Source of the DNA: Roseomonas gilardii subsp. gilardii
Lineage (GTDB): Bacteria > Pseudomonadota > Alphaproteobacteria > Acetobacterales > Acetobacteraceae
DNA length: 64,000 bases
Direction: 5' to 3'
Assembly: GCF_023078375.1 (NCBI RefSeq)
Contig: NZ_CP095554.1
Coordinates: 1,488,001-1,552,000, forward strand
A program made the translations under genes and the position numbers. Shown here in pieces: positions 673 through 58,720 of this stretch. The notes under the pieces were generated by a model that searched no databases, was not told where the DNA came from, and was given only the letters and a program-made list of their open reading frames with translations. The stretch's first letter is position 1, and every line of letters starts with the position of its first letter.

Positions 673-930
673 CCGGTCCCCGGACCCCGGGCTTTCGTTG
701 GCACTAATGGCGGCCGTTGGCCCGCGCCCGATCTGTGGAGCAGATGGATCGGCGGGGCTCCCGGAAAGTAGAAAAACGCCTTGTCCGCGCTGATGGCACC
801 GGCAGCCCGCCGGAGAGCCATGCTCTCCGGCGCGATCCGGTGTCAGCGAGCGCCCACGAACCGGGTCCAGGGCGCGCAGCGTCCTGGCGGAAAAGGGGGC
901 ACGGGGGAAAGGCGGAGCCTTGTCCCCCGG
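673..930 (+). repeat. Dispersed structured intergenic repeat, copy A
   Basis: This fills most of the 384-base gap between the amidohydrolase and the MaoC gene. It is clearly similar over its length to 16732-16986 and to the reverse complement of 9033-9262. It contains a perfect hairpin at 808-832 (11-bp arms, loop CAT), a second weaker hairpin near 878-900, and a terminal hairpin at 903-928 (G5-A3-GGC against GCCTT-GT-C5). Small open frames across it differ between copies and are not conserved, so it is non-coding. The terminal hairpin could end transcription, although no T tract follows. Confidence 0.8.
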
Positions 931-9032: not shown

Positions 9033-9262
9033 TGGGGGTGTCCCCCGGGGGCAAGGCTCCGCCTTTCCCCCGGACCCCCTATCCGCCAGGACCCTGCGGG
9101 CCCTGGACCCCATTCGTTGATGCCTGCTGTGGCCGGATCACGCCGGAGAGCCATGCTCTCCGGCGACCGCGGGCGCCACCAGCGCGAAGAGGGTGGATTT
9201 TTCCTTTCGGGAACCCGCTGATCCACCTGCTCTCGGGGATCGGGCGGCAGACTGGCTTGGCC
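9033..9262 (-). repeat. Dispersed structured intergenic repeat, copy B (inverted)
   Basis: The reverse complement of this stretch aligns with 673-930 and 16732-16986 along its length. The terminal G/C hairpin is at 9041-9072, the conserved CCAGG/CCTGG hairpin at 9087-9107 and the perfect 11-bp-arm hairpin at 9140-9164. It lies just after lptM, where lysA would be expected, and makes up the first half of the 484-base gap before the methyltransferase gene. No coding capacity is conserved with the other copies. Confidence 0.8.
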
Positions 9263-9269
9263 ATCCAGT

Positions 9270-9350
9270 GCCAACTCAAGGCGGGGCCTGGGGGGATACC
9301 ATCTCCCAGCGGAGGGGGACCGGGGGAGGCGGAGACCCCGCCCGGGGCCG
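9270..9350 (+). repeat. Fragment of the same repeat (tail end)
   Basis: The segment around 9309-9348 (AGCGGAGGGGGACCGGGGGA, then a GGCGGAG core and a C-rich arm) matches the tail of the repeat in the forward direction, the opposite of copy B just upstream. It seems to be a truncated second copy in inverted orientation. The remaining bases to 9500 show nothing else I recognise. Confidence 0.45.
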
Positions 9351-9500
9351 GCCATCAGGAGCAATACCGCAGCACATGGTGTCCTGGGAAAAGCCGTTTC
9401 CGGGGCATGAGCGTGATGCGCGAGGAAGATCGGGTGGACTTTCCCGCCAGGCGTGAAACAGGCACACAGGCGGCTCTGATGGAGCGAGGGCGGGCCGAGG

Positions 9501-16731: not shown

Positions 16732-16986
16732 TGTCCGGCCCCGGGCCTCCGTTGGTTCCTGTGGCTACCGTTGCTCCATGGCCTGACCCCTGAGAGCAGG
16801 TGGATCAGCGGGGCTCCCGAAAAGAAAAACAACACCCTGTCCGCGCTGGCGGCACCGGCAGTCGCCGGAGAGCATCGCTCTCCGGCGCGATCCGGCCGGC
16901 AGCAAGCACCAACGAACCGGGTCCAGGGCCCGCAGGGTCCTGGCGGATAGGGGGGCCGGGGGAAAGGCGGAGCCTTGCCCCCGGGG
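16732..16986 (+). repeat. Dispersed structured intergenic repeat, copy C
   Basis: Same orientation as copy A and similar along its length. The central hairpin at 16863-16887 keeps the 11-bp arms but has loop ATC in place of CAT. The second hairpin spans 16923-16943 and the terminal G/C hairpin 16957-16984. It occupies most of the 309-base gap between the convergent LysR and livM genes, so the terminal hairpin may also act as a terminator. Confidence 0.8.
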
Positions 16987-17020
16987 CGGCGCGGCGCCGG
17001 ACGAACCGCGAAACCCGGCG

Positions 17021-23637: not shown

Positions 23638-23760
23638 TCCGGGGTTATTCCCCGGGAGAAAGGCGGTGCCTTCCCCCGGAATCCCCCCTTCGGTCCCTAT
23701 CCGCCAGGAAGCTGGGGTTCCTGGTCCGCCCACTCGTCGGTTCCGGTGGCGGCCACCGGC
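23638..23760 (-). repeat. Partial copy (D) of the dispersed structured repeat
   Basis: The reverse complement matches the tail half of copies A-C. From left to right are the terminal G/C hairpin (23652-23680), the stretch CCCTATCCGCCAGG shared with copy B, and a diverged CCAGG/CCTGG hairpin (23704-23724). The central hairpin is missing. The element abuts the stop codon of the HMG-CoA lyase gene, in the gap before the acyl-CoA ligase. Confidence 0.6.
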
Positions 23761-31074: not shown

Positions 31075-31105
31075 CCGGGGGCACAAGGCGGAGCCTTCCC
31101 CCCGG
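31075..31105 (+). terminator. Solo G/C hairpin like the tail of the dispersed repeat
   Basis: CCGGGGGCACAAGGC, loop GGA, then GCCTTCCCCCCGG forms a strong stem. It matches the terminal hairpin of the repeat elements at 673, 9033 and 16732 but without their other parts. It lies between the convergent TetR and ugpC genes, where a terminator is expected. There is no T tract. Confidence 0.5.
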
Positions 31106-31108
31106 TGA

Positions 31109-51014: not shown

Positions 51015-52718
51015 TCAGAACAGGAAGTAACGCTGCGCCATCGGCAGGATTTTCGCTGGTTCGCAGGTGATCAACTGGCCATCGACGCGCACCTGATAGT
51101 TCTGCGGGTCCACTTCGATCTTCGGCGTCAGCGAATTGTGGATCATGTCCTTCTTGCGGATCCCCCGCGTGCCTTTGACCGCGGCAATCTGCTTCTGCAG
51201 TCCCAGCTTCTCGCCGATCTTGTCATCGAGGGCGGCCTGCGAGACGAAGGTCACGCCGGTCTTGCCACGCGCCCGGCCGAGGATGCCGTACATTGGCCGG
51301 TAGTGCACCGGTTGCGGCGTGGAGATCGAGGCATTCGGATCGCCCATCGGCGCGGTCGCGATCATGCCGCCCAGCAGCACCAGCGACGGCTTGACCCCGA
51401 AGAAGGCCGTCTTCCACAGCACGAGATCCGCGCGCTTTCCGACCTCAATGGAGCCGATCTCATGGGCGAAGCCATGGGTGATCGCCGGGTTGATCGTATA
51501 TTTGGCGACGTAGCGCTTGCAGCGGAAATTGTCGTTGCGTTCGCTGTCTTCCGGCAGCGGGCCGCGCTGGACCTTCATTTTGTGCGCGGTCTGCCAGCAG
51601 CGCAGCGTCGTCTCGCCGATGCGCCCCATCGCCTGGGAATCCGACGACATCATCGAGAAGGCGCCGAGATCGTGCAGGATGTCCTCCGCCGCGATCGTCT
51701 CCTTGCGGATGCGCGATTCGGCGAAGGCGACGTCCTCCGGGATCTGCGGGCTGAGGTGATGGCACACCATCAGCATGTCGAGGTGCTCGTCCACGGTGTT
51801 GACCGTGTAGGGACGCGTCGGGTTGGTGGAGGAGGGCAGGATGTTCTCCTGCCCCGCCGCCGTGATGATGTCCGGCGCATGGCCGCCACCGGCGCCTTCC
51901 GTGTGGAAGGAGTGGATGGCACGGCCCTTCATCGCCGCGAAGGTGTTGGCGACGAAGCCGCTCTCGTTCAGCGTGTCGGTATGCAGCGCGACCTGCACAT
52001 CCATTTCGTCGGCGACGGCGAGGCAGTTGTCGATCGCCGCCGGGGTCGTGCCCCAATCCTCATGCAGCTTGAGGCCGATGACGCCCGCCCGGATCTGCTC
52101 GCGCAGTGGCTCGGGCAGGCTGGCATTGCCCTTGCCGAGCAGGCCGACATTGATCGGCAGATCCTCGGTCGCCTCCAGCATGCGGTGGATGTACCAGGGC
52201 CCGGGCGTGACGGTGGTGGCGAGGGTGCCGACCGATGGCCCGGTGCCGCCGCCAACCAGCGTGGTGGTGCCGCTGGCCAGTGCTTCCTCGGCCTGCTGTG
52301 GGGCGATGAAATGGATATGCGTGTCGATGCCGCCGGCCGTCAGGATCATGCCCTCGCCGGCGATGACGTCGGTGCCCGGTCCGATGACGATGGTCACGCC
52401 CGGCTGGATGTCGGGATTCCCCGCCTTGCCGATGCCGGCGATGCGCCCGTCCTTGATGCCGATATCGGCCTTCACGATGCCCCAGTGGTCGAGGATGATC
52501 GCGTTGGTGATGACGAGGTCCGCGACATCGGCCGCGTTGCGCTGGCCCTGGCCCATGCCGTCGCGAATGACCTTGCCGCCGCCGAAGGTCACCTCCTCGC
52601 CATAGACGGTGTGGTCCTTCTCGATCTCGATGATGAGTTCGGTGTCGGCGAGGCGAATGCGGTCGCCCTTTGTGGGACCGTAGAGGTAGGCGTAGTTCTC
52701 GCGAGGGATGCGTACCAT
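51015..52718 (-). CDS. ureC: Urease alpha subunit UreC
   Basis: The catalytic subunit, 567 residues, the full family length. The nickel-centre motifs are present: [25 protein letters not shown] with the carbamylated Lys, [29 protein letters not shown], the flap [15 protein letters not shown] with its mobile Cys and His, and the Asp in [11 protein letters not shown]. It starts one base after ureB. It hydrolyses urea to ammonia and carbamate in the cytosol. Confidence 0.98.
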
Positions 52719-56452: not shown

Positions 56453-56907
56453 GCGCGCTGTTGCAAATCGCACAGTTCGCGGCGGTTGTCTTTGCAATGA
56501 GTCGGGCTTGCTGTGATCTGACGGAGAGTCGTCGGATCAGTTGGCATCTGTTCTTTTGAGCTGGGCCGGGCGTGTGGAGTTGGGCGCGAAATGGCGCCGG
56601 GCAAGTTCCGGTTCCAGAACGTGCGGCGACCGCCAGGGGCAGCTGCTGTCCGGTACCTCGGTGATGCTCAGGTGACCGACGGCCGCCACCGGCGCCAACG
56701 AAAGCCCCGGTGGGGTTGGGGCCCAGGGGTGTGGGCCTTGCCCCCGGGCCGGACACGGGCGCGAGGTCCAGCCCTGCCCGCGGAATGGCGGGGAAAGCGG
56801 AGGCGGGAGGCTGGACAGGGGCGGGAGCCGGTCGTTTGATGCGCGCCCTTGAGGAGCGGCGACCTGGGAACCGGGCGGACGCGCCGGGGAAAGGGCAGGA
56901 GAGCATC
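56453..56907. other. Gap after ureF with a possible IS end fragment
   Basis: A 455-base gene-free stretch. At 56455-56470 GCGCTGTTGCAAATCG resembles the GGCNCTGTTGCAAA terminal repeat of IS6-family elements, though no transposase is visible. From about 56675, ACGGCCGCCACCGGCGCCAA and a following GGCCTTGCCCCCGGGCC recall pieces of the dispersed repeat but are too short to assign. The last 80 bases lead to the dehydratase gene. Confidence 0.4.
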
Positions 56908-58689: not shown

Positions 58690-58720
58690 CCCGGGGGAAA
58701 GGCTCTACCCTTTCCCCCGC
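58690..58720 (+). terminator. Solo G/C hairpin after the dehydratase gene
   Basis: CCGGGGGAAAGG, loop of about six bases, then CCTTTCCCCCG forms a stem like the tail hairpin of the dispersed repeat. It is 12 bases after the dehydratase stop and could attenuate read-through to the next gene. There is no T tract. Confidence 0.5.

Follow-up and report, generated by a model that had tools for sequence, protein, structure and literature searches.

Palindromic repeats are common in bacteria, yet why genomes keep them and how they are removed is an open question in the field, and a 64,000-nucleotide stretch of the Roseomonas gilardii subsp. gilardii chromosome (C1 1,488,001 to 1,552,000; the window) poses it in concrete form. 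A first-pass annotation had marked three intergenic copies of a repeat of 230 to 260 bp in the window and had suggested a MITE-like element or a family of structured RNAs or terminators. What kind of repeat is this, and what maintains it?

A high-copy repeat family on one chromosome

The R. gilardii genome (G000 in our set) consists of C1, at 4.20 Mb, and a second contig of 0.42 Mb. Window copy 1, used as a query, gave 40 strong matches in this genome, and the central hairpin of the repeat, CGCCGGAGAGCNNNGCTCTCCGGCG, was found with up to 3 mismatches at 85 sites, compared with 0 for a reversed control; the three copies bearing the hairpins named in the first-pass annotation are therefore confirmed, far above chance. 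A sequence-only profile of 26 copies, including window copy 1 but neither copy 2 nor copy 3, recovered 147 matches among the best 150 of 6394 candidates, from both strands and exclusively on C1. C1 carries 87 strong copies (at least 130 bits) of a palindromic DNA repeat of ~350 bp, a few of them with internal deletions or one end missing, which disposes of the annotation's proviso that no further copies might exist genome-wide. In all, 110 copies were read from about 118 distinct places (counted by hand), the remaining 8 being short partial copies that were left out. Our literature search on repeats, intergenic or palindromic, in Roseomonas or Acetobacteraceae found no earlier description of the family.

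In the window, the profile redrew the bounds of all three copies. Copy 1, which is near-complete, lies on the forward strand at 597 to 948 (C1 1488593 to 1488948; 308 bits, model positions 21 to 364 of 366), not at 673 to 930; copy 2, near-complete and inverted, spans 9041 to 9369 (226 bits, model 9 to 348), not 9033 to 9262; and copy 3, a forward copy with its left end missing, spans 16735 to 17001 (240 bits, model 95 to 363), not 16732 to 16986. The piece at 9270 to 9350, previously listed as a separate tail fragment, is the left third of copy 2. A half copy reported at 23638 to 23760 is present as a right-hand fragment on the reverse strand with bounds of 23647 to 23753 (35 bits, model 256 to 350), and a small internal fragment occurs on the same strand at 56671 to 56709 (17 bits, E = 3.6e-5, model 102 to 140; inverted pair I13). 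The two lone tail hairpins of the annotation score only 9 and 7 bits, so that their assignment rests on likeness to the terminal hairpin: the first, moved from 31075 to 31105 to 31078 to 31108, is on the forward strand (8.6 bits, E = 0.015), and the second, at 58690 to 58720, is on the reverse strand (6.8 bits, E = 0.05). Both are likely deletion remnants of full copies.

Anatomy of the unit

The unit is about 350 bp long rather than 230 to 260 bp; the earlier bounds missed the outer inverted repeat as well as two hairpins, the left terminal one and GGGGACC..GGTCCCC. In aligned copies, the outer inverted repeat is imperfect and reads GGCGTTGCGCT ... AGCGCAACGCC. From the left, it is followed by the left terminal hairpin, the paired strands CCCCC..CCGCC/GGCGG..GGGGG, the left hairpin GGGGACCGAAGCCGGTCCCC, the paired strands TTCGTTGG/CCAACGAA, and a branched internal region whose loop is A-rich; next come the central 11-bp dyad, a right hairpin of the form CCAGG..CCTGG, and the right terminal hairpin. 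Five hairpins per unit are conserved and partly covary. No reading frame is consistently open, any given frame being stop-free in at most 32 of 87 copies, and we rejected a coding function on this ground.

In copy 1, on the forward strand, the left outer end is weak; the left terminal hairpin, GGGAGAGGC GCC GCCTCTCCC, is at 613 to 633 (motif list and alignment), the central 11-bp dyad with the 3-nt loop CAT is at 808 to 832 (hairpin family and dyad scan), the CCAGG..CCTGG right hairpin, of type GCGCGCAGCGT, is at 867 to 887 (sequence and alignment), and the right terminal hairpin, GGGGGAAAGGC GGA GCCTTGTCCCCC, is at 903 to 928 (motif list). Positions 648 to 661 hold CATGACCAGGAATG, an altered, 14-nt form of a 13-bp insertion variant seen in the R. 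gilardii genome only. The dyad scan placed the central dyads of copies 2 and 3 at 9141 to 9165 (reverse strand; C1 1497141 to 1497165) and 16863 to 16887 (forward strand, loop ATC), respectively. The loop does vary, as the annotation had it, but not between the two forms CAT and ATC: 17 loop triplets occur among the R. gilardii copies.

The proposal that stems are preserved while loops change holds up, and the stems have support beyond plain sequence identity. Two-sided changes were found in 28 cells compared with 10.9 in shuffled controls and 0 to 1 in slid ones, and they are confined to 4 of 40 pairs. Across 26 copies, 98.0% of the cells in the five hairpins pair (94.8% when shuffled), and the four copies compared with their dinucleotide shuffles fold below them with z scores of -2.2 to -6.4 (40 shuffles each).

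The dyad stands out in comparisons with a congener, G003. In eight orthologous pairs, none of them selected through the dyad, the arms of the dyad differ by 0.034, the least of the parts compared, and the three-base loop differs by 0.708; all paired columns together differ by 0.143 and all unpaired columns by 0.306, and the other hairpin loops, at 0.19 to 0.22, are far less extreme than the dyad loop. An earlier pooled figure for the arms, 0.057, was open to bias because the loci of Roseomonas mucosa, for which the arm divergence alone is 0.072, had been retrieved through exact matches to the dyad; the value of 0.034 comes from a repeat with G003 only. A near-saturated loop over near-identical arms is compatible either with recurrent opening of the tip of the hairpin or with a protein that recognizes the arms and is indifferent to the spacer.

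Probably a DNA palindrome, not an RNA

The repeat looks like palindromic DNA rather than an RNA or a terminator. If an RNA strand were selected, G-U pairs should exceed A-C mismatches on that strand, but the 74 pairs that both strand models predict hold 187 G-U and 175 A-C cells, which shows no such asymmetry; the count was limited to these shared pairs because pairs predicted for one strand only are inherently biased. Where the element lies between tandem genes, it is in the sense orientation in 19 cases and antisense in 23. Slightly better folding of the plus strand speaks the other way: it is the more stable strand in 58 of 76 copies (mean, -202.0 versus -198.5), and in the consensus fold (-203 versus -193). 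The first consensus fold, from the profile alignment, was implausibly weak, and a MAFFT alignment was used instead; the per-copy energies were kept.

An Rfam scan of the whole window matched none of the copies, and copy 1 had no match up to E = 1. These results leave the structured-RNA proposal unsupported, and the same is true of an intrinsic terminator: among the 75 copies (of 87) with a recognized right hairpin, none has at least 5 T in the 10 nt that follow it. The scan did return a match to 5_ureB_sRNA (RF02514) at 52283 to 52569 on the forward strand (108 bits). This RNA is antisense to ureB in Helicobacter, and the match may merely reflect ureB coding DNA.

Siting beside genes

Copies of at least 100 bits fall between convergent genes in 46 cases, tandem genes in 42, and divergent genes in 6, with 1 unresolved (95 copies; gene contexts are those of a home-made gene caller). 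The convergent share, 46 of 94 copies, compares with 44 of 225 neighboring gene pairs in sampled DNA (p = 3e-7). Between convergent genes, stop codon and element are separated by a median of 14.5 nt on the left side and 17.5 nt on the right side. The copies mostly adjoin gene 3' ends. A truncated copy at C1 731080 to 731386 (L099) is overlapped at its edge by a reading frame at 731322 to 732431 (L276, 1322 to 2431), which to us looks like an IS110-type transposase, as if the repeat had been the target or the landing site of an insertion sequence.

Siting of this kind is known from shorter palindromes. In the two species plotted in one survey of REPs, those between convergent genes are mostly no more than 20 bp from either gene 3' end, and those in tandem contexts are close to the end of the upstream gene (PMC3733652).

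Carriers, insertion, and loss

We surveyed 60 genomes under stricter filters, scoring the best 25 candidates per genome. Strong carriers were R. gilardii and 3 of the 14 other congeners, namely, G003, G004, and, in a diverged form, G013; six further congeners hold weak scraps, and 11 of the 15 genus genomes lack strong copies. Under these strict filters, none of the 45 genomes from outside the genus yielded a family member. When named genomes were scanned for exact dyad matches, 45 of the 49 stretches recovered were from Roseomonas mucosa ATCC BAA-692; the other four, in two Clostridia MAGs, Nocardia testacea, and Glycomyces harbinensis, are taken as chance matches. Since paired loci of G004 and R. 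mucosa ATCC BAA-692 have identical element scores, the two are apparently the same genome.

In the G013 form, 20 of the 30 retrieved copies have dyad arms reading CGCCGAGGAGC/GCTCCTCGGCG instead of CGCCGGAGAGC/GCTCTCCGGCG, a compensated substitution. Only 1 of the 30 G013 loci matches an R. gilardii address on both flanks, which makes the two expansions look largely separate, though distant flanks may be missed.

Several addresses are occupied in one genome and empty in another. At L091, the element lies between two genes in R. gilardii, G003, and G013, and a remnant is kept in G004; in the 11 remaining congeners, the same genes are 7 to 17 bp apart. The L070 address, the cleanest empty site, is vacant in G003; judged by eye, the ends fall where the outer inverted repeat predicts, and at most ~2 bp could be a target duplication. 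In R. mucosa, the L065 site has no element, and at the sites of L076 and L087 (L197 and L185, respectively) a single terminal-type hairpin replaces the full element, the leftover expected from a deletion between the two terminal hairpins. These paired loci form a natural series for palindrome deletion.

Terminal inverted repeats without coding capacity are MITE traits, and the suggestion of a MITE-like element gains from the outer inverted repeat and the empty sites; a clear target duplication and a transposase partner were not seen. Among the profile matches listed, no pair spanning kilobases stood out as a full-length relative with the same ends. A search for the Y1 transposase (PF01797) was negative in all 15 genus genomes and positive in 5 of 14 control genomes, and a RAYT/Y1 transposase was rejected on this ground.

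An origin-centered map

Sequences one mismatch away from a ParB-site consensus occur at 737 and 759 kb on C1 and at 4.138 and 4.160 Mb in G003, and none was found in G013. Between the two C1 sites lie genes read from their translations as hemE and a DUF299/PPSR-type gene; alphaproteobacteria have a hemE-RP001 origin. The hemE stretch is at 4.151 to 4.153 Mb in G003 and 4.751 to 4.753 Mb in G013. A near-complete copy (C1 745520 to 745865, L027) directly follows the PPSR-type gene beside this presumed origin, and the same address in G003 has a weaker one (149 bits).

Counted in tenths of a replichore from the hemE stretch, the 87 R. gilardii copies are distributed as 21, 20, 18, 15, 6, 5, 0, 1, 1, and 0. 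The 68 listed chromosomal copies of G003, a map that leaves out one C2 copy and weaker matches, are distributed as 18, 17, 13, 6, 8, 5, 1, 0, 0, and 0, and the 148 chromosomal copies of G013 (among the best 150 of 8948 candidates, with 2 on C2 left out) as 28, 20, 21, 24, 18, 13, 9, 10, 3, and 2. Beyond 0.62 of the arm, there are 2 of 87, 1 of 68, and 20 of 148 copies where 33.1, 25.8, and 56.2 were expected (p = 1e-15, 3e-13, and 4e-11, respectively), and the mean direction of the copies is 1.8%, 0.6%, and 3.3% of the chromosome away from the hemE stretch. The origin-side limit, at 62% of each arm, is sharp in R. gilardii and G003 and a gradient in G013, whose 20 terminus-side copies show that it is not absolute. 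The two seemingly separate expansions, in the R. gilardii clade and in G013, have the same origin-centered map.

Sampled terminus-half DNA is unremarkable in gene layout, with 15.4 convergent gene pairs per 100 kb versus 17.1. Each of the 15 genus genomes, R. gilardii included, has matches to a 10-kb terminus-side stretch at 2.90 Mb; these are contiguous in G003 (92%), nearly so in G004 (91%), and partial or in pieces elsewhere. On this single stretch, the idea that the terminus void is recent foreign DNA is unsupported. The only terminal-type hairpin in 130 kb of sampled terminus-half DNA is at position 7439 of L116 (~2.757 Mb). Copy score does not depend on distance from the origin (rho = 0.02), nor, among R. 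gilardii copies, does carriage of the 13-bp variant. Polarity with respect to the replicating strand was rejected: 44 of the 87 copies are oriented with the fork.

Fixed addresses, shuffled contents

Orthologous addresses were compared among retrieved loci only, the R. mucosa copies having been retrieved by exact dyad match and most G003 copies by score. The 47 locus pairs found, several per address, were reduced to 21 addresses at which the relative's element exceeds 100 bits (G013 left out); the R. gilardii copy at L091 is below 130 bits and was dropped from sequence comparisons, leaving 20. Orientation was counted with a 60-bit limit, which includes L001 and L091, and is the same in 26 of 26 pairs at 22 R. 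gilardii addresses (p = 3e-8 by pairs and ~5e-7 by addresses). This agreement makes independent insertion at the same addresses unlikely.

The sequence content of the copies behaves differently from their orientation: at orthologous addresses it matches no better than under random pairing. The orthologous R. gilardii copy was the most similar of the 87 in 3 of 20 cases, with ranks from 1 to 79; right-hairpin type agrees in 4 of 14 comparisons (3.0 under random pairing) and the loop in 1 of 18 (2.1). Third codon positions of the flanking genes differ by 0.13 (21 addresses), compared with 33% at unpaired element columns. Mean identity is 0.777 (~78%) among R. gilardii copies, 0.784 between these and G003 copies, and 0.773 between these and R. 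mucosa copies; it is slightly higher (0.806) only when copies are compared inside the sets selected from G003 and R. mucosa.

The 13-bp insertion is carried by 22 of 74 R. gilardii copies of at least 180 bits and by none of the retrieved copies of G003 (0 of 13), R. mucosa (0 of 40), or G013 (0 of 30); junction-like matches to it in other genomes' loci are in sequence unrelated to the element. It is present at 5 of the 20 compared addresses, each time in R. gilardii but not in the relative, and at no address in both. The 33 bp after the insertion are the only part in which carriers show less diversity than noncarriers (0.04 to 0.06 versus 0.08 to 0.11), and carriers do not otherwise form a distinct group. 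By tally, with no formal test, the insertion co-occurs with each of the four commonest right-hairpin types, and both left-hairpin types likewise occur with each of these four.

Discussion

The explanation that we favor, and to which we assign an even chance, is that the copies are overwritten in place by gene conversion among one another, driven by break repair, and are purged near the terminus. The empty sites suggest that copies first arrived by an insertion process, and they would now persist vertically. Palindromes may extrude hairpins at replication forks, and an SbcCD-type hairpin nuclease could cut them. RecA repair would then sometimes be templated by another family copy instead of the sister, replacing the content of a copy with its address unmoved, the hairpin tip scrambled, and the arms kept. 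Occasionally, everything between two terminal hairpins would be deleted and one hairpin would be left. At the terminus, which is replicated last, the sister would be present only briefly, and palindromes would be costly there and likely purged.

In-place, short-tract gene conversion explains the fixed addresses, the shuffled contents, and the 13-bp variant together. Against it, the mean identity among R. gilardii copies is low for RecA exchange, and homogenization within the genome is slight (0.777 compared with 0.784 to G003). A burst just before speciation followed by rapid change could account for much of the mismatch in content, though not for the 13-bp variant unless that was lost elsewhere. 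The flat relationship between score and origin distance, the 20 terminus-side copies of G013, and the slightly better folding of the plus strand, which an RNA reading would predict, also count against this explanation. A wider formulation, in which gene-end palindromes mark the origin side, keep their address and direction across species, share a sequence pool by mutual overwriting, and evolve as one freely recombining population on one chromosome, strikes us as unlikely.

The main rival, doubtful to a similar degree, is that the copies are landmarks held by selection and not by break repair, with a putative dimeric protein on the central 25-bp dyad marking the origin side for segregation, topology, or division-site control in the manner of SlmA or Noc sites. 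Such a protein would suit the origin-centered, terminus-poor map in three genomes and the combination of least-diverged arms with a free spacer, yet the neighboring hairpins show paired changes as structures, 11 of 15 genus genomes do without strong copies, and conserved arms could also serve spread. Noc sites are similar in length to SlmA sites. SlmA and Noc sites resemble the family in numbering dozens over the chromosome and missing the terminus region, and SlmA sites are palindromic; they are short protein sites, 12 bp for SlmA, with no need for a 350-bp structured frame (PMC3116907).

An ordinary selfish repeat of the MITE or REP kind, which spread in a transposition burst shortly before the species split, was favored at gene ends and near the origin, and then diverged plainly without exchange, seems to us improbable on the same order. 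The outer inverted repeat, the empty sites (L070 in G003 and L091 in 11 congeners), the star-like similarity within and between genomes, and a 3'-end siting typical of REPs in the species plotted (PMC3733652) all fit such a history. A 13-bp variant seen only in R. gilardii at addresses common to relatives, its free combination with other markers, and a terminus void over DNA that is conserved where checked are not easily explained by it, and Y1 transposase is absent from all 15 genus genomes.

Very improbable, finally, are structured RNAs or 3' untranslated region elements acting on the mRNA ends of adjoining genes, for which 3'-end siting, folding below shuffles, and the more stable plus strand speak, and against which stand the symmetric wobble, the mixed sense and antisense tandem contexts, and the lack of an Rfam match for copy 1 and of a T-tract.

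Compared with REPs, the family differs in size, tag, and transposase. Like REPs, BIMEs, and REPINs, it is a high-copy palindromic intergenic repeat beside gene 3' ends, but REPs in the survey's account measure 20 to 40 bp and carry a GTAG or CGTC tag (PMC3733652), in contrast to a unit of ~350 bp with five hairpins, at whose ends (GGCGTTGCGCT..AGCGCAACGCC) no REP-type GTAG or CGTC tag was seen by eye. CGTC repeats of alphaproteobacteria are reported there as missing from Acetobacteraceae (PMC3733652). REPs and REPINs pair with RAYT, and a RAYT-type Y1 transposase is what the 15 genus genomes lack. The family shares with bacterial MITEs and the Pseudomonas fluorescens R families an intergenic location, inverted repeats, and tens to hundreds of copies, and the P. 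fluorescens genome likewise has repeat-free "deserts" (PMC2718517). Those deserts consist mostly of strain-specific genes (93.7% of CDSs), unlike the Roseomonas terminus stretch checked, which matches all 15 genus genomes; and evolution with fixed addresses and shuffled contents, as seen in Roseomonas, is not described for the P. fluorescens repeats in the relevant part of that paper (PMC2718517).

Dozens of related palindromes share one chromosome, their range has a marked limit on the way from origin to terminus, and many of their addresses recur in sister species; this brings the question of how such repeats are kept and cleared within reach of experiment. Two points become directly testable: whether dispersed copies serve as templates when a palindrome breaks, and whether a missing sister near the terminus limits palindromes or a protein reads them as landmarks. 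If mutual overwriting holds, the family would offer a natural experiment on the tolerance or use of palindromes by a chromosome.
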